From Paenarthrobacter aurescens TC1 (GTDB lineage: Bacteria; Actinomycetota; Actinomycetes; Actinomycetales; Micrococcaceae), in assembly GCA_000014925.1 (NCBI GenBank), contig CP000474.1, positions 806,001 through 870,000 on the forward strand: a stretch of DNA of 64,000 nt, written 5' to 3'. Numbering within the stretch: the first letter of the stretch is position 1; every line of letters starts with the position of its first letter. The position numbers were made by a program, and so were the translations under genes. Shown here piece after piece: positions 6,322 through 20,747 of this stretch. The notes beneath the pieces were generated by a model. It made no database searches. It saw only the letters and a program-made list of their open reading frames with translations, and had not been told where the DNA came from.

Positions 6322-9300
6322 GGATACGGAGTCCCTTCGGAGTGGAGTACGCCCCCGCTGCCGCGAGGGCAACGGCGATCGGAGTGTCCAGGAGATCGTG
6401 GCCGTTGACTTTCTCCATGAAGAGCTTGTCCACGGCACCGCGGCGCACCACGTCCACCAACGCTTGGGCCGCAACTGTCAGCACGGCGTCGTCCTGGCTG
6501 AAGGTGAGCAGCGTCTTGCCGCCGCGTTCCACGTAGAGGACCAACGCGCCGTCAACCATCACCACCAGCGCTCCGGCCTTGCGCCCCGGACGGTGACCGG
6601 AACCGGCGTCGACAGACAGCGCGGGCCAAGGAAGGGCAGCGCCGTAGGGGTTGGCGGGGTCGGTCGCGGCGAGTGCAAGGGCGGCTGGTTCGGCCTTGGA
6701 AATGCGGGCATCCTCCGTGAAGGACCTGAGCCGGTCCACCGTGGCGGGGACGGCGAACTGGGCTGCCCCCAAATGCTCGATGAAGTAACCGCGGCGGCAA
6801 CGCCCGGCTTCTTCCAAGCGGGCCAGCACTTTGTACATGAGCCCGAAACCGCCGATGATGTTCTCTGCCATGACCGAACCGCGAGTTACCACGCCGTAGC
6901 GGTCCAACAGGAGCTCAGCCGTGCCGCGTGCGTGGATGGTCGGGTCCAGTTCCGGGGCGGGAAGAGCGGACCATCGACCCACTGCCGACGGCGGTGCAGG
7001 CGCAATTCCGCCTGATACCGAGCCGTAGCGACCCCCCGTTAGTCCGGGGGAGCCGAGCAGGCCCGTCCCATGGGAACGGCCGAGCCTGCTCATGCGCGGG
7101 GCCCGGGCCCTGGGCGCCTTGGCTACTTGCCGGTGCGCGGTTTTCCCTCCGGCGATCATGGCTCTCACGGGTGCAAAGGTATCGCCCGTTACGCGGCCGG
7201 CCCAGACGAGGTCCCAGAGCGCGGAGACCACGGCGTCGTCGCTCAAGACTGCATCCATGCCGCCGGCAACGTCCGTGAGTTGCCGGAAGAAGTAGCCACC
7301 GCCCGCACTGAAATGTTCCAAGAGACGCTGTTGGGCATCGCCGGGTTCGAACTCGGGGTCGGGGTTGAGCGTCAGCTCAGCGGAATCGGCTACGTGCAGG
7401 CTGATCCAGCCATCGTTTCCGGGCAGCGAGCCTGCGCCGGACCAGAGGAGCTCGCCGGCCGCCATGAGTTCGTCCAGCATGGCCGGCTTGTAGTCCGCCA
7501 CCCTGCTCGCGAGTACCAGGGGTTCCCACGCGGATGCCGGGATGGGTACTCCGGATAGTTGGTCCACGGCTGTGATGATGCCGTCCAACCCCCGCAATGC
7601 CTGGCTTCGAGACTTGCCCGGCGCGGTCACGTTCTGCCAGGCAGGCAGGAACCGGCCGTAGGCGGCGGTGTCCACTGGCTCCACTTCGGCCCGCAGCGCA
7701 GCGAGCGAGCGACGCCGCAGTTTCCGGAGGACTTCGGCATCGCACCACTCGCTGGACGGTGGGGCGTCAATGGTCATAAGCTCTGCGTCGGGTGCTTCCG
7801 CAGGCTGCTCCGCGACGGCGTGCGGACGGAATTCGCCTTCCACCACGCGACCGTCGCCAGCCAACCGTTTCAAGGCGGTGTTGACTACCGCGACGCCAAG
7901 CCCCAGCCGCGCCGCAGCTTCAGCGGCAGTGAAGGGGCCATGGGTGCGCGCGTACCGGGAAACGAGGTCGCCCAGGGGATCGTGGACTGGCTCAATGAAA
8001 GCAAGCGGTACGCCCATGGGCAACGGAACACCGATTGCGTCACGCAGCCGCGCCGCGTCCTCAACTGCGGCAAAGCGCTCGACGCCGCCGATGGTTACCT
8101 TGAGTGCGCGGTTGGCTTTCTGCAATGCCGCAAGGTGGGATCCGGCGTCGACGACGCTGCCATGTGGCGCAGCCGCCGGGGCTTCGTCGAAGTGGTCCGC
8201 GCCTTCAACTTCGGCTTGTTCCACGCCTTGGAGCCGCTGGGCCACTTCTTCAACGCTCAGGGGGCCCAGCAGCCGCAGCAGATCCGCGACGCCTTCCATT
8301 CCTCGAACGCGTCGGTCCGGGGCGAGGCGCTGCAGCTCCAACTCAGTTGAGTCGATAACCGCGGCATCCAGGAGCTCGCGCAGTTCCACGCGGCCCAGGA
8401 GCTCATTGAGGAGCGTGGAGTCCAAGGCGAGGGCAGCGGCCCGGCGTTCGGCCAAGGGGGAGTCGCCCTCGTAGAGGAACTGGGCCACGTACCCGAACAA
8501 CAGGGACTTCGCGAAAGGGGAGGGTTGCTGAGTGGTGGTCTCCACGATCCTGAGCTCCCTGCGCTCCACAGAAGCGGCAATGTCTTTCAGGGCGGGCAGA
8601 TCATAAACATCCTGCAAGCATTCCCGCACTGTTTCGAGCACGATGGGGAACGAAGGATACTTCCGGGCGACATCCAGCAACTGGGCAGAGCGCTGGCGTT
8701 GCTGCCATAGCGGCTGACGCTTGGCCGGATTCTGTCGTGGAAGAAGCAATGCACGGGCGGCACATTCGCGGAACCGGGAAGCGAACAGTGCGCTGCCGCC
8801 TACTTCTGCGGTGACGATTTGCTCGAGTTCCTCCGGGTCGAAGAGAAAGAGCTCAGCGCCGGGCGGCTCATCTTCCATCATGGGCACGCGCAGCACGATG
8901 CCGTCGTCTGCTGCCATAGCGGATCCATCGAGGCCGTAGCGCTGTTGAAGGCGTTGGCCTACTGCAAGAGCCCACGGGGCGTGAACGGGCATGCCGAAAG
9001 GACTGTGGAGGACTACCCGCCAATCGCCGAGTTCGTCGTGGAAGCGCTCCACCACCAAGGTTCGGTCGCTCGGGACAATCTCCGTGGCTTCCTTTTGCTC
9101 CCTGAGGTACTGGATCAGGTTGCTTGCGGCGAAGGCATCCAATCCGCTGGCCTGGCAACGTTCCATGGCCGGGGCTTCGTCTGCGGCCGAGAGTTCACGG
9201 ATGAAGGCACCCAGCGCGCGGCCCAGGTCTACGGGCCTGCCGAGGGAATCGCCCTTCCAGAAGGGAAGCTTGCCGGGTTGGCCGAAAGCGGGGGAGACCA

Positions 9301-11278
9301 GCACGCGGTCGTGGGTGATGTCCTCGATCTTCCAACTGGTGGCACCGAGCGCGAAGACGTCTCCCACCCGGGATTCGTACACCATCTCTTCGTCGAGCTC
9401 ACCAACGCGGCGTCCACCCTTGGCGGCACGCGCCGAAGCGGTGGGTTCTGATCCGTCCGCGTTGGCGGGGGAAGCTGAGCCCTCAACTTCCGTGCCGATG
9501 ATATACACGCCGAAGAGTCCACGGTCAGGGATGGTGCCACCGGACGTGACGGCAAGGCGCTGGGCTCCGGGCCTGCCCTCGATGGTTCCGGCATGCCGGT
9601 CCCAGATAATGCGCGGCCTGAGCTCGGCGAATTCGTCTGAGGGGTACCGGCCGGCGAGAAGGTCCAGCGTGGCCTCAAATGCAGAGCGCGGCAGGCTCGC
9701 GAAAGGCGCAGACCGCCGCACCGTACTGAACCAGTCCTCAACGTCTATGCTGCCCAAGGCGGTTGCTGCGACCGTTTGCTGGGCCAGGATGTCCAACGGG
9801 TTGGCTGGGATGCTCAGGCGCTCAATCTGCCCACTCAGCATGCGTTCCACCGTGACGCTGGTGTGGAGGAGGTCCGCGCGGTGCTTGGGGAAGAGCACGC
9901 CCTCGGAGATCTCACCCACTTGGTGCCCTGCACGCCCGACACGCTGGAGGCCACTGGCCACCGATGGGGGAGACTCCACCTGGACCACCAAGTCCACGGC
10001 ACCCATATCGATGCCGAGTTCCAGTGATGACGTTGCCACCACGCAGCGGAGCCGGCCGGACTTGAGGTCGTCCTCGATCATGGCCCGCTGGTCTTTGGAG
10101 ACCGATCCGTGGTGCGCGCGCGCAAGCACGGGATCGGCGCCAGTAGAGCTTCCGGCCTGCGCCATCATGTGCGCAGGGGTTGCCGTGGAGGCCGGGATTC
10201 CCGGGTTGGATTGGGGGGCCGCCCCGGGAGCAGCCCACTCGCTGCCGCCTACCGCCATCAACTGGCGCTCGGCGTAGATCTCGTTGAGGCGGGCTGTCAG
10301 GCGTTCTGCCAAGCGACGGGAGTTGGCGAACACGATGGTGGATTGTTTGGACAAGACCAAGTCCACAATCTGCTCCTCCACGTGCGGCCAGATGGACGCC
10401 TGTGGCTGCAACCCCGACGCCGGCCCGGAGTCGAATGCTCCGGCAGCGCCCTGCAGATCGGACATGTCCTCCACAGGTACGGTGACCGTGAGGTTCCAGT
10501 TCTTCTTGGATGGTGGAGCGACGATCTCCACGGGGGCTTGGCCGGCCAGGAACTGCGCCACCAGCTCACGCGGCTGAACGGTTGCCGAGAGCCCGATGCG
10601 CTGCGCAGGCTTCGGAAGCAGGGCATCCAGGCGTTCCAAAGAAACGGCCAAGTGTGCGCCACGTTTGGTGCCGGCTACAGCGTGCACTTCATCGATGATG
10701 ATGGTGTCCACTTCGCTGAGCGTTTCCCGGGCACGGGAGGTCAGCATGAGGAACAGGGATTCCGGCGTTGTGATGAGGATATCCGGCGGGTTGGTCAACA
10801 GCGTGCGGCGATCCGCCGCCGTCGTATCTCCTGAACGTACGCCGACTGTCACCAGTGGTGCGGGGAGTCCCAACCGCTTGGCAGTTTGGGTGATGCCGAT
10901 CAGGGGTGCGCGGAGGTTCCGCTCCACATCCACACCCAGCGCCTTCAGCGGCGAGATGTAGAGGACGCGGGTCTTGGTTTTAGGCCGCTTTGCCCGACCC
11001 TTGCCATTGGCTGGGACAGTCTCAAGACCTGGCAGCGTGTCAGTGGGCTTGGAATGCAGGCGATCGAGCGCCCACAGGAACGCCGCAAGGGTTTTGCCGG
11101 AACCTGTTGGCGCCACTACCAGGGCATGGGAGCCCGAGGAGATCGCGTTCCATGCACCATCCTGCGCGGGTGTGGGCTCGGAAAAAGCGCCGAGGAACCA
11201 TTCCCTGGTTGCCTGGCTGAAACGGCTGATAGCGCCATCCGACGCCTTCGGCTCCTGCATTCCTCCATCATGCCTCAC
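6314..11278 (-). CDS. lhr: Large ATP-dependent helicase Lhr
   Basis: A 1654-residue superfamily 2 helicase. Motif I is APTGSGKT (~residue 57), motif II is DEVHAV, and motif VI lies around QRVGRAGHQ. The Lhr winged-helix and core regions follow, then the very long C-terminal extension typical of full-length bacterial Lhr. It unwinds 3'-tailed DNA or RNA:DNA in known homologues and is DNA-damage-induced in mycobacteria. It is first in an overlapping pair with nei. The start is uncertain: the GTG at 11278 lies inside a strong terminator-like hairpin, while the in-frame ATG at 11260 lies just beyond it and directly follows GGAGGA. Confidence 0.95.
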   Translation of the reverse strand: MRHDGGMQEPKASDGAISRFSQATREWFLGAFSEPTPAQDGAWNAISSGSHALVVAPTGSGKTLAAFLWALDRLHSKPTDTLPGLETVPANGKGRAKRPKTKTRVLYISPLKALGVDVERNLRAPLIGITQTAKRLGLPAPLVTVGVRSGDTTAADRRTLLTNPPDILITTPESLFLMLTSRARETLSEVDTIIIDEVHAVAGTKRGAHLAVSLERLDALLPKPAQRIGLSATVQPRELVAQFLAGQAPVEIVAPPSKKNWNLTVTVPVEDMSDLQGAAGAFDSGPASGLQPQASIWPHVEEQIVDLVLSKQSTIVFANSRRLAERLTARLNEIYAERQLMAVGGSEWAAPGAAPQSNPGIPASTATPAHMMAQAGSSTGADPVLARAHHGSVSKDQRAMIEDDLKSGRLRCVVATSSLELGIDMGAVDLVVQVESPPSVASGLQRVGRAGHQVGEISEGVLFPKHRADLLHTSVTVERMLSGQIERLSIPANPLDILAQQTVAATALGSIDVEDWFSTVRRSAPFASLPRSAFEATLDLLAGRYPSDEFAELRPRIIWDRHAGTIEGRPGAQRLAVTSGGTIPDRGLFGVYIIGTEVEGSASPANADGSEPTASARAAKGGRRVGELDEEMVYESRVGDVFALGATSWKIEDITHDRVLVSPAFGQPGKLPFWKGDSLGRPVDLGRALGAFIRELSAADEAPAMERCQASGLDAFAASNLIQYLREQKEATEIVPSDRTLVVERFHDELGDWRVVLHSPFGMPVHAPWALAVGQRLQQRYGLDGSAMAADDGIVLRVPMMEDEPPGAELFLFDPEELEQIVTAEVGGSALFASRFRECAARALLLPRQNPAKRQPLWQQRQRSAQLLDVARKYPSFPIVLETVRECLQDVYDLPALKDIAASVERRELRIVETTTQQPSPFAKSLLFGYVAQFLYEGDSPLAERRAAALALDSTLLNELLGRVELRELLDAAVIDSTELELQRLAPDRRVRGMEGVADLLRLLGPLSVEEVAQRLQGVEQAEVEGADHFDEAPAAAPHGSVVDAGSHLAALQKANRALKVTIGGVERFAAVEDAARLRDAIGVPLPMGVPLAFIEPVHDPLGDLVSRYARTHGPFTAAEAAARLGLGVAVVNTALKRLAGDGRVVEGEFRPHAVAEQPAEAPDAELMTIDAPPSSEWCDAEVLRKLRRRSLAALRAEVEPVDTAAYGRFLPAWQNVTAPGKSRSQALRGLDGIITAVDQLSGVPIPASAWEPLVLASRVADYKPAMLDELMAAGELLWSGAGSLPGNDGWISLHVADSAELTLNPDPEFEPGDAQQRLLEHFSAGGGYFFRQLTDVAGGMDAVLSDDAVVSALWDLVWAGRVTGDTFAPVRAMIAGGKTAHRQVAKAPRARAPRMSRLGRSHGTGLLGSPGLTGGRYGSVSGGIAPAPPSAVGRWSALPAPELDPTIHARGTAELLLDRYGVVTRGSVMAENIIGGFGLMYKVLARLEEAGRCRRGYFIEHLGAAQFAVPATVDRLRSFTEDARISKAEPAALALAATDPANPYGAALPWPALSVDAGSGHRPGRKAGALVVMVDGALVLYVERGGKTLLTFSQDDAVLTVAAQALVDVVRRGAVDKLFMEKVNGHDLLDTPIAVALAAAGAYSTPKGLRIRA

Positions 11279-15363: not shown

Positions 15364-15621
15364 GTGGTCATCACGTTACGGGCTATACAGGAGGTCCGCC
15401 AGGAGTGCGATAACACTGAACTCAGAACTGTGAGGCACGCCCGAAAAGCCGGGCTGTCCTGGGCGGAGATCGCCACTGCTCTTGGGGTTTCCCGCCAAGC
15501 TGTATGGGAGCGGTGGCATGAGATCGACGAGACGCTGCCCAAGAATGACCGGTGGGGGCCTTCCGCGCTGAACGACACGGGGCCCAATGGCGACGAGCCC
15601 CCTGATGGCACGCGAATATGA
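15364..15621 (+). CDS. Small helix-turn-helix DNA-binding protein
   Basis: An 85-residue protein. The core LSWAEIATALGVSRQAVWERW is a clear helix-turn-helix of the sigma-70 region 4/MarR-like type. The GTG at 15364 is chosen because GGAAGG lies 5 bases before it; ATGs at 15265 and 15304 are in frame but lack ribosome sites and give a non-protein-like N-terminus. The C-terminus is acidic and Pro-rich. Its TGA overlaps the ATG of the NERD gene (ATGA), so the two are translationally coupled. It probably regulates the pair through the palindromes upstream. Confidence 0.7.
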   Translation: MVITLRAIQEVRQECDNTELRTVRHARKAGLSWAEIATALGVSRQAVWERWHEIDETLPKNDRWGPSALNDTGPNGDEPPDGTRI

Positions 15622-16439
15622 GGCAGATGAGGCTCCGGTACGCGGGAGCCTGCCGGCAGTGCGGGGCAAGGATTGCTGCCGGGACAGAGGCGATCTATGA
15701 GGGCGAGACCAAGTCCATCAGTTGCTTGGTGTGTGCCACTGAGGGCAGTGTTGCGCTAACCCCGGTTCTGGAACCAACTCGTGACGAATCTACTCCCATT
15801 GAACCCGGAACAGCAGGATCCTCTGCTCGACGTGAATATGAGCGACGCAAGGCCAAGGACAAGGAAAAGCTGCGCGGGAAGTGGGGACGCTTCGGCGGCT
15901 TGGCAGTCGCGCTCGCTGATGAGCGGCCCAGCACGAGCGCCTGGGACAGGGGTGCGATCGGTGAGGAGCGACTGGGAGTGCGGCTAAATGCCCTGGCCTC
16001 CGAGGACCTGGCTGTCCTCCATGATCGGCGCATCCCCGGTTCGAAGGCCAACATCGACCATATCGTCATCACGCCGGGCGGAATTTGGGTGATCGATGCC
16101 AAACGGTACAAGGGTCGGCCTGAATTGAAAATTGCAGGTGGCATGCTTCGTTCACGCGTCGAGAAGCTTCTGGTGGGCGGGCGTGATTCAACGAAGTTGG
16201 TCGATGGCGTTCTCAAGCAGGTCGACGTTGTGCAGGACTTGGTCGGATCTGTCGCGGTCAACGGCGTGCTGTGCTTCATCGAAGCGGACTGGCCTCTGAT
16301 TGGGGGAGCGTTCATGACTCGTGGCGTTCACGTACTCTGGCCGAAGCGGCTGGCCAAGGTACTTGAGGCGCAAAGGGCCGGTGACGTTGATGTGGCGAAG
16401 ACGCGGGAATCACTAGCCTCGCGGTTCAAGCCAGCGTGA
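15618..16439 (+). CDS. NERD-domain nuclease-like protein with N-terminal zinc ribbon
   Basis: A 273-residue protein. Residues ~10-40 form a zinc ribbon (C12xxC15…C36xxC39). A charged, probably helical linker follows (ARREYERRKAKDKEKLRG). The NERD domain (~110-225) contains GEERLGVRL, NIDHIVITPGGIWVIDAKRY, the E…D…DxK constellation of PD-(D/E)xK nucleases. It overlaps the HTH gene by 4 bp. NERD proteins are linked to DNA processing and accessory regions, but their role is poorly known. A nuclease function is inference from the retained residues. Confidence 0.85.
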   Translation: MRQMRLRYAGACRQCGARIAAGTEAIYEGETKSISCLVCATEGSVALTPVLEPTRDESTPIEPGTAGSSARREYERRKAKDKEKLRGKWGRFGGLAVALADERPSTSAWDRGAIGEERLGVRLNALASEDLAVLHDRRIPGSKANIDHIVITPGGIWVIDAKRYKGRPELKIAGGMLRSRVEKLLVGGRDSTKLVDGVLKQVDVVQDLVGSVAVNGVLCFIEADWPLIGGAFMTRGVHVLWPKRLAKVLEAQRAGDVDVAKTRESLASRFKPA

Positions 16440-16839: not shown

Positions 16840-16847
16840 CTCATTGG

Positions 16848-16934
16848 CGGTGACGGTGGGATTTGAACCCACGTTGGCTTTTACACCAAACAACATTTCG
16901 AGTGTTGCACCTTCGGCCGCTCGGACACGTCACC
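16848..16934 (-). tRNA. tRNA-Ser (CGA)
   Basis: An 87-nt gene. Acceptor arms GGTGACG/CGTCACC, anticodon stem CAACA/TGTTG with loop CTCGAAA, hence anticodon CGA. It has the long variable arm expected of a class II tRNA and T-loop GTTCAAATC. CCA is not encoded. It reads UCG codons, common in this GC-rich genome. The terminator lies immediately downstream. Confidence 0.95.
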
Positions 16935-17061: not shown

Positions 17062-18069
17062 ATGACGATTTCGCAGCACCACGAACAAGAACACGAAGCA
17101 CGGGCCTACTGGGTCACTGAGACCGGCGATGGCGAGCTGCGCCGTGAGGCCCTGCCCGCGAGGCGAGACGGGGAAGCCCTCGTCAGGACCCTGTTCTCGG
17201 GTGTCAGCCGCGGCACTGAGCGCGTGGTCCACGAAGGCCGCGTCCCGGAGCGTGTGGCCGACCTCATGCAGGCCCCGCACCAGGAGGGTGACTTCCCGGG
17301 CCCGGTGAAGTACGGCTACCTGAACGTCGGCATTGTGGAAGAAGGCCCGGACGAATGGCGAGGACAAACGGTCTTTAGCCTGCATCCGCATCAGGACTTC
17401 TACGTGATCCCCACGAGCCAACTCACCGCCATCCCGGAGGAAGTCCCTGCGAAACGCGCCGTGCTCACGGGCATCGTTGAGGTTGCCATCAATGCGCTCT
17501 GGGAAGCCGGACCCAGGCTGGGAGACCGTGTCGCCGTCGTCGGTGGCGGTTTGGTGGGTGGCGTTCTGGCGACGCTGCTGCGGAAGTATCCGCTGGGCCG
17601 CCTGCAACTGGTGGACGCGGACCCGGAGAAGCAAAATCTCGCGCAAAAGCTCGGCATCGAATTCGCCGAGCCCGAAGCCGCCAAGAACGACAACGACATC
17701 GTCTTCCACTGCTCCGCCTCCAATGAGGGCCTCAAATTGAGCCTCCAGCTGGCCGGCGACGACTCCGATGTCATCGAGCTCTCGTGGTTTGCGGACAAGG
17801 AAGTCACCCTGCCGCTCGGCGAGGATTTCCACGCCCGCAGGCTCAATATCCGCTCCAGCCAGGTGGGCGCCGTCGCCCTGCCCAGGAGGCACCGGCGGTC
17901 CAACGCCCAGCGCTTGGAGCAGGCGGCAACCGAACTAAGGGACCCGCTGTTCGACACCTTCATTACCAGCGAATGCCTGTTCCAGAACCTGCCCGCCACG
18001 CTCACAAAATTGTTCGAACGGCCCGGCGGTTTCTGCCACGTGGTCGCCTACCCCCACCCGGAGGATTAA
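17062..18069 (+). CDS. BchC-like MDR-family dehydrogenase lacking the catalytic zinc Cys
   Basis: A 335-residue medium-chain dehydrogenase/reductase. The N-terminal GroES-like half holds FSGVSRGTERVVHEG and FPGPVKYGYLNVGIVEEGP, the pattern of BchC-type zinc-binding dehydrogenases. Ser occupies the place of the usual first zinc-ligand Cys. The Rossmann half carries VAVVGGGLVGGVLATLL (~residue 155). HPHQDFYVIP is retained. It is first of three same-strand genes; the next starts 3 bp after its stop. The substrate is unknown. The neighbours suggest a step on a pterin-like or glycosylated small molecule. Confidence 0.85.
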   Translation: MTISQHHEQEHEARAYWVTETGDGELRREALPARRDGEALVRTLFSGVSRGTERVVHEGRVPERVADLMQAPHQEGDFPGPVKYGYLNVGIVEEGPDEWRGQTVFSLHPHQDFYVIPTSQLTAIPEEVPAKRAVLTGIVEVAINALWEAGPRLGDRVAVVGGGLVGGVLATLLRKYPLGRLQLVDADPEKQNLAQKLGIEFAEPEAAKNDNDIVFHCSASNEGLKLSLQLAGDDSDVIELSWFADKEVTLPLGEDFHARRLNIRSSQVGAVALPRRHRRSNAQRLEQAATELRDPLFDTFITSECLFQNLPATLTKLFERPGGFCHVVAYPHPED

Positions 18070-18072
18070 TAC

Positions 18073-18471
18073 ATGTTCAGCTTGACCGTCCGACGCCACT
18101 TCATGATCGCCCACAGCCTTCCCCGCGAAGCTTTCGGCCCGGCCCAGGGCCTGCACGGCGCCACGTTCGTAGCCGAGGTCACCTTCCGCCGGCCCAACGT
18201 CAACGACGACGCCATAGTCCTTGACATCGGTGCCGCCGGCGGCATCCTCGAGGAAGTGCTCGCCGACCTGAACTACAAGAACCTGGACGAACACCCCGCT
18301 TTCAAGGGCAAACTCTCCACCACCGAAGCGCTCGCGAAGCACATCGCCGACGCCATGGCGGCCCGAATCCAGGACACTGCGGACGGTCCGGCCCTGACCG
18401 GCATCGACGTGGTCCTCCGCGAAAACCCGGACGCCTGGGCAGGCTACTCGCTGGAGCTCCCGGTCAAGTAA
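18073..18471 (+). CDS. 6-pyruvoyltetrahydropterin-synthase-fold protein with lost active site
   Basis: A 132-residue T-fold protein of the PTPS/QueD family. The N-terminal FMIAHSL and LHGATF align with the zinc-binding HxL…HGH of QueD. Of the three zinc ligands H14 and H28 remain but the third is A30. The catalytic Cys is A24, and the catalytic Asp-His pair is N67-Y68. The pterin-anchoring Glu (VVLRENP, E117) and the TxE motif (STTEAL) remain. So the ligand pocket may persist without canonical catalysis. It sits between the BchC-like dehydrogenase and the GT4 gene. A binding or novel lyase role is inference. Confidence 0.88.
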   Translation: MFSLTVRRHFMIAHSLPREAFGPAQGLHGATFVAEVTFRRPNVNDDAIVLDIGAAGGILEEVLADLNYKNLDEHPAFKGKLSTTEALAKHIADAMAARIQDTADGPALTGIDVVLRENPDAWAGYSLELPVK

Positions 18472-18485
18472 ACCCGGTCAAGTAA
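18459..18485 (+). repeat. 14-bp tandem duplication at a gene junction
   Basis: CCCGGTCAAGTAA occurs at 18459-18471 and again at 18473-18485, one base apart. The first copy contains the PTPS-like stop codon and the second ends directly at the GTG of the glycosyltransferase. It looks like a short slippage duplication that separated two formerly tight genes. Confidence 0.8.
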
Positions 18486-19475
18486 GTGCACATCCGCTTC
18501 CTGGTCCCGGGGAACGTCCGGCACGGCTCCGGCGGCAACAAGTACAACGCCAAGCTCGCCGAGCACCTGTCCGCCTTGGGCGTCGAAGTTGAAACAGTAA
18601 CGGTCGACGGCGACTGGCCGGTTGGGAGCCCCGCAGACCGGCAGCGCTTCGCTGACATGCTCGACGGCGCCACAACAGTGATTGCCGACGGCTTGGTGGC
18701 GAGTGGGGCACCGGACGAGATCGCCGGTGCCGCAGGTAAAGGAACACGGGTCTGGATCCTGTCCCACATGGCGTTGGCGGACCATCCGGATCTTGAGGCC
18801 AAGGCGCTGGCTGCGGCGACCGGGATCATTTGCCCGAGCGCCCATGCCGCCGCGGAACTGCGAGCCAGGCACGGGCACCAGGACATTGTCGTGGCCACAC
18901 CCGGGGCTGTTGAAGCAGACCCTGCCAAGGGATCGCAACCGCAGCACATCGTGGCTGTCGCGGCGTTGTTGCCTAACAAGAGCCAACTCGAACTCGTGGA
19001 GGCCCTCAGCCACACGCAGGATCTCCCCTGGACCGCAGCCCTCATCGGCTCAAATGACGCTGACCCGAGGTACGCCGCGGAGGTGAGGGCCGCCGTCGAG
19101 CATCACGGGCTCCAAAACCGTATCAGCGTCACCGGTGAGCTGACCGGCGAGGCCCTCGAGGATCAGTGGCACAGGGCGGACCTCAGTGTCCTTATTTCAC
19201 GCTCCGAAAGCTATGGAATGGCGGTCTCGGAGTCGTTGGCTCATGGCATCCCCGTGCTTGTGCGGAAGGGAACGGGAGCAGTGGAAGCACTGGGTAAGAC
19301 AGGGGCGGGCACTGCCTTGGAACTCCCAGAAACCGGGAACCTCACCAACACCCTCCGTAGCTGGCTCACTGACCCCGCGCTCCAAGACCGTTGGCGGACC
19401 GCCGCCCTCAAAGCCCGGGACCATCTCCAAGGCTGGGGCACCACCGCGGCCATCGTTCTCAAAGCCCTCACGTAG
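18486..19475 (+). CDS. GT4-family glycosyltransferase
   Basis: A 329-residue GT-B enzyme. The N-terminal domain opens with IRFLVPGNVRHGSGGNKYN, a Gly-rich acceptor loop. The C-terminal domain has the EX7E nucleotide-sugar motif (ESYGMAVSESLAHGIPV). Start GTG at 18486, 14 bp after the preceding stop; the ribosome site is weak, consistent with coupled translation. It is last of the dehydrogenase/PTPS-like/GT cluster. The acceptor is unknown. Actinobacterial clusters linking these three families are known to me, but no product is established. Confidence 0.85.
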   Translation: MHIRFLVPGNVRHGSGGNKYNAKLAEHLSALGVEVETVTVDGDWPVGSPADRQRFADMLDGATTVIADGLVASGAPDEIAGAAGKGTRVWILSHMALADHPDLEAKALAAATGIICPSAHAAAELRARHGHQDIVVATPGAVEADPAKGSQPQHIVAVAALLPNKSQLELVEALSHTQDLPWTAALIGSNDADPRYAAEVRAAVEHHGLQNRISVTGELTGEALEDQWHRADLSVLISRSESYGMAVSESLAHGIPVLVRKGTGAVEALGKTGAGTALELPETGNLTNTLRSWLTDPALQDRWRTAALKARDHLQGWGTTAAIVLKALT

Positions 19476-19502
19476 CAGCGGGGGAGGGTGCAGAATGGGG
19501 CC

Positions 19503-20747
19503 ATGACTAGCACAGTCCAGACCGCAACTAGCACGGTCCAGACCCTCCCGGCCACGGAAACCCTCACGCCTGAGCGCCTGAGGGCGTGGGCCTGGCAACG
19601 GCAGGGACTTGACGGCTCGCTGAACGGCAAGACTTCCGAAGAAGTCCTGGACCACGCTGGCTGGGCCCGCTCGGTAGGAGGCGCCAACCCCTACCTCACA
19701 TTGTTCGCCAGGGCGGGAGTCAGCCGCGAGCAAGCAGACCGGGACGTCAAAGCGCTGAAAATCCACGAACTCCCCACAGCCCGAGGATGCACCTACGTCC
19801 TGGGCCAGGCCGACTACGCTTGGGCCCTGCAGATCGGCCGCGACGCCGCCATAGCCCCCTTCAAAGTACTGGCAAGGCTGGGCGTCGAACGCGGTGAGAT
19901 TACCCTCCTCGAGGACGAGGTGGAGCACGCCCTCAGAGAAACCAGCAGTCCCATGGACCCCAAACAACTCCGGGATGTGCTGGGCGACTCGGTCCGCAGC
20001 CTGGGCGAGGAAGGCAAGAAAAAGGGCGCCTCCACCACGCTGCCCACCGCCTTGGGACTCCTGCAGGCAGACGGCCGCATCCGCCGCGTCCCCGTCAACG
20101 GCCGCCTCGACCAGCAGCGCTACGCCTACACCAAATGGGGCCTTCCGCCCGGCAAACTGGACGACGACGGCGCCCGCTGCCTTTTGCTCGAACGGTACCT
20201 GCGCTGGACCGGGGGAGCGACCTTCAAACAGAGTCAGTGGTTCACTGCGTTCACCGTGGCTCAAAGCAAAAAGGCGCTCGCCGCCATTGGCGCAGTGGAA
20301 GTGCCCACAGCGTGCGGTGAGATCCTGTGGATGCTGCCCGCCGACGTCGAACGCTTAGCTGACTTTGAAGAGCCCGGCGACGAGCAAATCCAGCTGCTGG
20401 CAGGCACCGACTCACTGGTCCTCCTCAGGCGGAACTCGGCAGACATGTTTGCGGACGAGGACAGGGGCAAGAGCGTCCTGGGCTCCACGCTCGCGCTGCA
20501 GGCCGACCTCCCGGACCATCCCATCCTGGACCGTGGGAGGATCATCGGGCTCTGGCAGTACGATCCCGGCAAGGAAAGGATCGCGGCGTGGACCTTCGAT
20601 CAGCCGACAGAGGCGGTCCGCGAAAGAATCACGCAAGTAGAAGCATGGATTCGGGACGAACTCGGCGATTTCAGGTCGTTCAGTTTAGATACCCCGGCAT
20701 CACGCCAAATCCGGATCGACGCGCTGGATGAGGCCGCCGGACGCTGA
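19503..20747 (+). CDS. AlkZ-like winged-helix DNA glycosylase family protein (HTH_42)
   Basis: A 414-residue protein. The sequence follows the AlkZ/HTH_42 pattern: RLRAWAWQRQGLDG at the N-terminus, repeated winged-helix units (e.g. LHE/LPTARGCTYVL, DDGARCLLLERYLRWTGGATFKQ) and a C-terminal strand-rich region (ILDRGRIIGLWQYDP). AlkZ and YcaQ members unhook interstrand crosslinks; others are uncharacterised, so the substrate is open. The ATG at 19503 is preferred: the -10-like CAGAAT lies 6 bases before it, suggesting a leaderless mRNA. It converges on the VOC gene. Confidence 0.85.
   Translation: MTSTVQTATSTVQTLPATETLTPERLRAWAWQRQGLDGSLNGKTSEEVLDHAGWARSVGGANPYLTLFARAGVSREQADRDVKALKIHELPTARGCTYVLGQADYAWALQIGRDAAIAPFKVLARLGVERGEITLLEDEVEHALRETSSPMDPKQLRDVLGDSVRSLGEEGKKKGASTTLPTALGLLQADGRIRRVPVNGRLDQQRYAYTKWGLPPGKLDDDGARCLLLERYLRWTGGATFKQSQWFTAFTVAQSKKALAAIGAVEVPTACGEILWMLPADVERLADFEEPGDEQIQLLAGTDSLVLLRRNSADMFADEDRGKSVLGSTLALQADLPDHPILDRGRIIGLWQYDPGKERIAAWTFDQPTEAVRERITQVEAWIRDELGDFRSFSLDTPASRQIRIDALDEAAGR

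Follow-up and report, generated by a model that had tools for sequence, protein, structure and literature searches.

The stretch analysed here, referred to as the window, comprises 64,000 nucleotides of Paenarthrobacter aurescens TC1 (assembly GCA_000014925.1, contig CP000474.1, positions 806,001 to 870,000 of the forward strand). Between window positions 17062 and 19475, three genes on one strand encode a zinc-less medium-chain dehydrogenase/reductase (MDR), a protein with the 6-pyruvoyltetrahydropterin synthase (PTPS) fold, and a GT4-family glycosyltransferase (Table 1). They are separated by gaps of 3 and 14 bp, confirming the tight cluster given in a preliminary description of this DNA.

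Residues and families of the three proteins

Alignment of the PTPS-fold protein with E. coli QueD placed Ala24 at the catalytic Cys, Ala30 at one zinc-binding His, and Asn67-Tyr68 at the Asp-His pair of the catalytic triad. His14 and His28, two of the three zinc-binding His, and the pterin-anchoring Glu117 are kept, and every residue claim of the preliminary description was upheld. The protein shares with QueD and 6-pyruvoyltetrahydropterin synthase the T-fold, these two His, Glu117, and membership of PF01242, the PTPS/QueD family (83.9 bits against a gathering score of 22.4), but lacks the catalytic Cys, the third His and the triad His, and scores under the cut-offs of both models (QueD, 35.5 of 89.25 bits; PTPS, 36.3 of 125.5 bits). 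Among the features of a catalytic QueD or PTPS (catalytic Cys, three His ligands, triad Asp-His and anchoring Glu) only the last, Glu117, is intact. Across 143 distinct PTPS cores, His14 and His28 are invariant, Ala24 is present in 142, Ala30 in 140, Tyr68 in 132, Asn67 in 97 and Glu117 in 142, the remaining core being unreadable (X) at that position. Four polar residues, Gln25, Thr31, Asn70 and Asp72, are newly near-invariant (141 to 142 of the 143).

Residues 21 to 25 of the window protein read FGPAQ, which is the published mark of the PTPS-IV subfamily, for which a neighbourhood with PF00925 and PF01872 is reported in the part of the AGeNNT paper that deals with it (PMC5445326). Among solved structures, 3d7j (SCO6650 of Streptomyces coelicolor) is nearest by sequence (E 1.3e-32) and was also the best structural match to our model of the window protein (pLDDT 93.7), with TM 0.91 and rmsd 1.5 over 131 columns at 49% identity. 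SCO6650 carries identical residues at the lost positions and also has FGPAQ; in contrast to the window gene, its Streptomyces relatives adjoin genes for GTP cyclohydrolase II (GCH II) and creatininase. The 2008 paper on this structure reportedly described a protein that lacks zinc, triad and PTPS activity but keeps the pterin-binding residues. The residue losses mark PTPS-IV, a subfamily known by structure, and are therefore not new. What had been presented as a peculiarity of this locus thus goes with the subfamily (motif in PMC5445326; structure 3d7j). Neighbours of the PF00925 and PF01872 families are absent from the window locus and from all 44 loci of the Arthrobacter type defined below and are common in relatives, the published link being a reported association and not a strict definition.

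The ratio of nonsynonymous to synonymous substitution (dN/dS) between the window and five relatives was lowest for the PTPS gene (0.03-0.06), compared with 0.10-0.16 for the dehydrogenase and 0.17-0.23 for the glycosyltransferase. Such low values indicate that PTPS-IV is an altered protein under strong purifying selection and therefore not a relic.

The dehydrogenase has the MDR fold without the catalytic zinc Cys of the zinc-dependent alcohol dehydrogenases of this superfamily. As the preliminary description had stated, Ser occupies this position: Ser49 stands at the column where solved relatives carry the Cys taken as the first zinc ligand, and it was invariant in 20/20 and 27/27 aligned dehydrogenase rows. 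The label BchC-like was not borne out, and BchC was rejected as the family of this protein (TIGR01202, 23.6 of 291.25 bits). The glycosyltransferase belongs to GT4 (PF00534, 69.9 bits against 26.4), and an E-x7-E-like motif is present in 132 of the 137 glycosyltransferases scored, the window protein among them. A GT1/GT4-like pteridine glycosyltransferase of Chlorobium tepidum is described as adding a sugar to tetrahydropterin (PMC5683033). It was likened to the window enzyme by description, as a functional analogy only, and by that analogy a glycosylated pterin is a plausible product.

Table 1 Features at the window locus, the trio first and its neighbours below
Feature	Position	Strand	Basis or remark
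Zinc-less medium-chain dehydrogenase, 335 aa, 'SRGTE...KYGY...LHPHQ' family	17062..18069	+	Open reading frame (ORF), alignment, model and fold; Ser49 replaces first zinc Cys
PTPS-IV protein, 132 aa, T-fold, FGPAQxLHGATF motif	18073..18471	+	Alignments, Pfam, structure model
GT4-family glycosyltransferase, 329 aa, GTG start, E-x7-E-like motif	18486..19475	+	ORF, profile matches
tRNA-Ser (anticodon CGA)	16845..16934	-	Directly upstream of the trio, opposite strand
AlkZ-like DNA glycosylase ORF	19488..20747	+	Starts 12 bp past the glycosyltransferase gene
NERD-domain protein (PF08378)	15618..16439	+	

A relative of the AlkZ-like gene also lies near the trio in other genomes of the genus (family 15, 7 loci).

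The trio and its larger relatives

PTPS is present in 37/37 genomes of the genus, that of the window included. The dehydrogenase was matched in 198/198 genus genomes at E<=1e-3, and in 196 of these at E<=3.1e-66; the two weak matches came from G441, which is 68% complete, and G499. Of 296 genomes drawn across the class, 46 had a PTPS match, three of them only close to the threshold. The block was also found on plasmid records of Streptomyces, Microbacterium, Rhizobiaceae, Methylosinus, Rhodobacterales and Chromatiaceae and, more distantly, of haloarchaea. A survey for co-conservation of the three genes had been proposed beforehand, and the trio does travel together far outside the genus.

For gene content we compared 146 loci selected for holding PTPS: 53 genome neighbourhoods, 12 plasmid neighbourhoods, 80 named loci (the best-ranked among at least 576 confirmed matches) and the window. 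Removal of two duplicates and one PTPS-less locus left 44 of an Arthrobacter-Sinomonas type and 99 others; L172, identical to L109, was among the loci dropped. The former group (the window, L100-L109, L164 and L168-L200, with L202 outside) was defined after the gene table had been seen, and the frameshifted dehydrogenases of L180 and L181 were kept in pieces. A family was scored as present at a bit score of 200 for creatininase, 'sulfatase', GTP cyclohydrolase IIa and the dehydrogenase, and of 100 for all others.

None of the other cluster genes was found in the 44 Arthrobacter-type loci, in seven of which at least one flank of the PTPS gene is shorter than 7 kb. Forty of them hold the full trio and four only part of it; a glycosyltransferase match of 100 bits is missing in L105, L176, L181 and L191, and the L176 stretch ends right past the PTPS gene. 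The 88 other loci of at least 14 kb hold the dehydrogenase (88), the glycosyltransferase (85), a methyltransferase (77), a CDP-alcohol phosphotransferase (72), a PF03706 flippase-like membrane protein (68), GCH II or GTP cyclohydrolase IIa (64), RibD_C (55) and creatininase (30), with creatininase or RibD_C in 80. In 28 loci a single ORF is matched by both the 'sulfatase' and the CDP-alcohol profile, whose members may overlap; a separate profile built from six annotated CDP-alcohol enzymes again gave 72/88. Outside the Arthrobacter-Sinomonas group the trio thus mostly forms the core of a larger cluster. The earlier proposal stands only in part: a GTP-derived pyrimidine or pterin substrate and its glycosylation are a sound reading, given GTP-opening enzymes in most larger clusters, but the trio as the whole route was not supported.

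Two cluster RibD_C proteins match TIGR01508, the model for reductases of the non-deaminated intermediate, at 119.1 and 115.6 bits, under the cut-off of 186.45. A deaminase domain was not seen in the one cluster RibD_C protein scanned with Pfam, no deaminase search of the clusters having been made. A cytochrome b561-like gene occurs in five proteobacterial clusters (L154, 12055-12582; L156, 11528-12085; L163, 12011-12544; L236; L237), near a RibD-type gene in the first three, and hints at a membrane redox role of the product. Long CDP-alcohol phosphotransferases (PF01066) in L071 (7488-9911) and L095 (9373-11640) also match the 'sulfatase' profile and are perhaps fusions.

As in our loci, the AGeNNT paper places PF00925 and PF01872 near FGPAQ proteins. 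It differs in taking PF00925 for GTP cyclohydrolase I/FolE2; its main text nowhere contains 'creatinin', and neither the Tyr105 split described below nor the stripped trio appears in its section 19 (PMC5445326). A search of the open-licence PMC literature found no paper on the product of the cluster and no assigned role for PTPS-IV, and a 2026 review of signalling pterins (PMC13259868) contains none of six terms sought in it.

In a quick dehydrogenase tree with SH-aLRT support only and no fixed root, 15 sampled trio rows form a clade together with one identical row (SH-aLRT 96), which supports the Arthrobacter-type grouping for the rows sampled. This clade stands beside 12 rows from larger clusters, most of them Micrococcales, and the two together have a support of 98. 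The tree suggests that the trio most likely arose by loss from a larger cluster.

Without linked entry enzymes, the Arthrobacter-type trio must draw on genes elsewhere. In the window genome (G000) there is a single match to GCH II, lying about 1.5 kb away from RibD, and there are 11 matches to the broad PF01872 family, making a RibD-type reductase in trans possible. Creatininases occur at other sites, two in G000 on other contigs (C2 and C3); G010 and G018 have a single creatininase each, G001 and G002 none. PF03706 had one weak match in G000 and none in the six other genus genomes searched. Riboflavin intermediates are probably the substrate source of the trio in this group.

The clusters extend in part to haloarchaea. 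Two Haloarcula plasmid clusters carry GTP cyclohydrolase IIa/III beside the dehydrogenase and PTPS, and GTP cyclohydrolase III is described as FAPy-forming (PMC7288161). The haloarchaeal PTPS from such neighbourhoods keep the three His in 6/6 cases, with Glu at the Cys column. They may represent either a subfamily of their own or the zinc-bearing counterpart of PTPS-IV within this block. In L158 of Natrarchaeobaculum (8228-10554), GTP cyclohydrolase IIa and the dehydrogenase are accompanied by a hypothetical protein at the usual place of PTPS.

Tyr105, creatininase and a likely entry intermediate

The cluster GCH II proteins (n=66) divide at the column of Tyr105 in E. coli RibA. Tyr is present in 35/35 proteins from clusters without creatininase and in 0/31 from clusters with it, where Met (19), His (7), Leu (3) or Gln (2) stands instead. 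Tyr105 is present in all seven references treated as canonical GCH II, that of E. coli included, and the three zinc-binding Cys are retained in 66/66 cluster proteins. The seven do not include L117, L119 and L122, whose translations were in a wrong frame. The non-Tyr clade has been kept across many genera while residue 105 itself varied. The GCH II paralog SCO6655 of S. coelicolor is said to release FAPy, the formyl product, owing to the replacement of this Tyr. Changed GCH II activities have been reported for three Streptomyces isogenes (PMC3509567).

A creatininase-family protein of Sinorhizobium, the riboflavin formamidase BrbF, is an experimentally proven deformylase of the formyl intermediate (PMC9478397). 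This creatininase-annotated enzyme, which acts on a GTP-derived compound, is our model for the cluster creatininases, all of which (32/32) keep the E-x-H...D motif; the two were likened by annotation and described reaction, not by sequence. BrbF differs in serving riboflavin, and the bacterial enzyme that supplies its formyl intermediate was, in that account, not found by its authors (PMC9478397). Taken together, the Tyr105-creatininase association and the proven deformylase suggest that creatininase is likely the partner that finishes the ring-opening reaction where Tyr105 has been lost, with 2,5-diamino-6-ribosylamino-4(3H)-pyrimidinone 5'-phosphate (DARoPP) as the common intermediate. Entry into the cluster pathway via the formyl- and then the 2,5-diamino-6-ribosylaminopyrimidinone phosphate is well supported.

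Several GCH II genes stand apart from a trio or recur in the sample. A second GCH II in one genome of the genus (L124; G002, C16:74034) lies off the trio and groups with the cluster enzymes in the tree. L125 and L126 belong to clusters and duplicate L059 and L092. A class-level relative has an extra GCH II/RibD_C pair away from its PTPS cluster (L127 and L131; G244, C19:24535-26535).

A proposed pathway and its alternatives

We propose that the trio is a reduced version, present throughout the genus, of a PTPS-IV cluster pathway found in Actinomycetota, Proteobacteria and, in part, haloarchaea, which probably turns a GTP ring-opening product into a sugar-decorated pterin-like compound. The proposal is tentative, and we give it a probability of about 0.45. 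The substrate of the trio, the order of steps, the chemistry and the product would be as follows. GCH II with Tyr105 would form DARoPP directly, whereas GCH II without it (in some haloarchaea, IIa/III) would form a formylated intermediate that the creatininase-family enzyme would deformylate to DARoPP. The zinc-less T-fold of PTPS-IV would bind the 2-amino-4-oxo ring of the diaminopyrimidine, or of a derived pterin, via Glu117 and support a metal-free step, either an Amadori rearrangement with ring closure or a condensation. Redox adjustment of the side chain, or of its partner, would fall to the zinc-less MDR dehydrogenase, and glycosylation of the product to the GT4 enzyme. In larger clusters, the methyltransferase and the membrane proteins (CDP-alcohol phosphotransferase and flippase-like protein) would modify or place it, and in Arthrobacter and its kin, where the linked entry enzymes have been lost, the trio would be fed by the riboflavin pathway.

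In the GTP cyclohydrolase I reaction, ring opening and deformylation are the steps that need zinc. With these steps given to other cluster enzymes, a zinc-free T-fold could carry out the second half of that reaction. A more specific form of the scheme, which we consider quite unlikely as a whole, would make PTPS-IV a metal-free T-fold cyclase in a GTP cyclohydrolase I reaction split over several enzymes, with a dihydropterin monophosphate then glycosylated, methylated and membrane-tied. The result would be an undescribed redox or signalling pterin, spread by plasmids and chromosomes among bacteria and haloarchaea, of which Arthrobacter would make a simpler form from riboflavin intermediates.

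A number of observations weigh against the proposed pathway. GTP cyclohydrolase is missing from 24 of the 88 larger loci, and was not listed in five other haloarchaeal stretches, for which the gene table is incomplete. The 31 non-Tyr cyclohydrolases form one clade (97/84), so the Tyr105-creatininase association rests on one evolutionary origin. The one cluster creatininase scanned scored 38.6 against 180 bits for ArfB and was nearer to mycofactocin MftE (123.6 of 172), RibD_C lies near just 5/31 creatininase-type GCH II genes, and the RibD_C protein of L154 best fits the general ribD_Cterm model (144.4 of 150.15 bits), not TIGR01508. Metal-free chemistry would not hold in haloarchaea, given the three His kept there. 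The larger clusters of Arthrobacter sp. H20 (L202), Rothia (L205) and Kocuria (L228), all among the 12 rows beside the trio clade, mean that the reduced state is not family-wide. Finally, the Arthrobacter trio, which in this scheme would act on DARoPP, is without linked entry enzymes, and its substrate could be another compound.

The function of PTPS-IV itself can be read in another way, since binding alone would be nearly as good a fit as catalysis. PTPS-IV would then be a non-catalytic binder of a pterin or flavin precursor (a carrier, scaffold or sensor), with all chemistry left to the dehydrogenase and glycosyltransferase. Retention of Glu117 in a protein that has lost its catalytic Cys, a zinc His and the triad His is consistent with this, as is the lowest dN/dS of the three genes (0.03-0.06), but the near-invariant Gln25, Thr31, Asn70 and Asp72 suggest a rebuilt active site, the haloarchaeal counterparts keep three His, and metal-free T-fold enzymes exist (dihydroneopterin aldolase and urate oxidase). 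We regard this binder as somewhat unlikely. The trio of the Arthrobacter group may also have been repurposed and no longer act on GTP-derived compounds; in favour, linked entry enzymes occur in 0/44 loci while the trio genes are near-universal (PTPS 37/37; dehydrogenase 196/198 at the stricter threshold). Against this, the pocket columns listed above match those of larger-cluster relatives, and GCH II is available in trans, which makes repurposing improbable.

A product with a ribityl, flavin-like side chain would arise if RibD_C reduced DARoPP and the ribitylaminopyrimidine were then condensed, glycosylated and membrane-tied. RibD_C in 35/35 Tyr-type clusters, the two matches to TIGR01508 under its cut-off, and the frequency of the CDP-alcohol phosphotransferase (72/88) and flippase-like protein (68/88) in loci of at least 14 kb point this way. 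RibD_C was nevertheless not found near 26/31 creatininase-type GCH II genes and is in 0/44 Arthrobacter-type loci, and RibD_C proteins are relatives of dihydrofolate reductase that could reduce a pterin, so we judge a ribityl product unlikely. Precursors of F420 derive from the same riboflavin intermediates. Unpublished work cited in a review places PTPS-IV in archaeal F420 synthesis (PMC5041015). Membership of the trio in that pathway is nonetheless very improbable, and for the Arthrobacter group it was rejected: no match to the FO synthase CofH over the family cut-off was found in 7/7 Arthrobacter-type genomes carrying PTPS-IV. CofH was also not matched in G089 or in the genomes behind L236, L222, L238 and L205, which likewise carry PTPS-IV, the last four being of unstated completeness, and the same search found it in G235, G244 and G149. 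A QueD role in queuosine synthesis is unlikely as well, because the PTPS-IV gene, the sole PF01242 gene in 7/7 Arthrobacter-type genomes tested (that of the window included), encodes none of the lost QueD residues and scores under the QueD cut-off.

A PTPS homolog with such losses has had a PDB structure (3d7j) since 2008. The present analysis adds the recognition of the trio as a stripped-down larger cluster and a covariation that points to a likely entry intermediate. Cluster content, taken with the Tyr105-creatininase split, provides PTPS-IV with a specific, testable substrate. The Arthrobacter trio, near-universal in the genus and free of other linked cluster genes, offers a small, tractable system for finding the product. 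If that product is indeed a new pterin, it would be an additional cofactor or signal common to Actinomycetota, Proteobacteria and perhaps haloarchaea.

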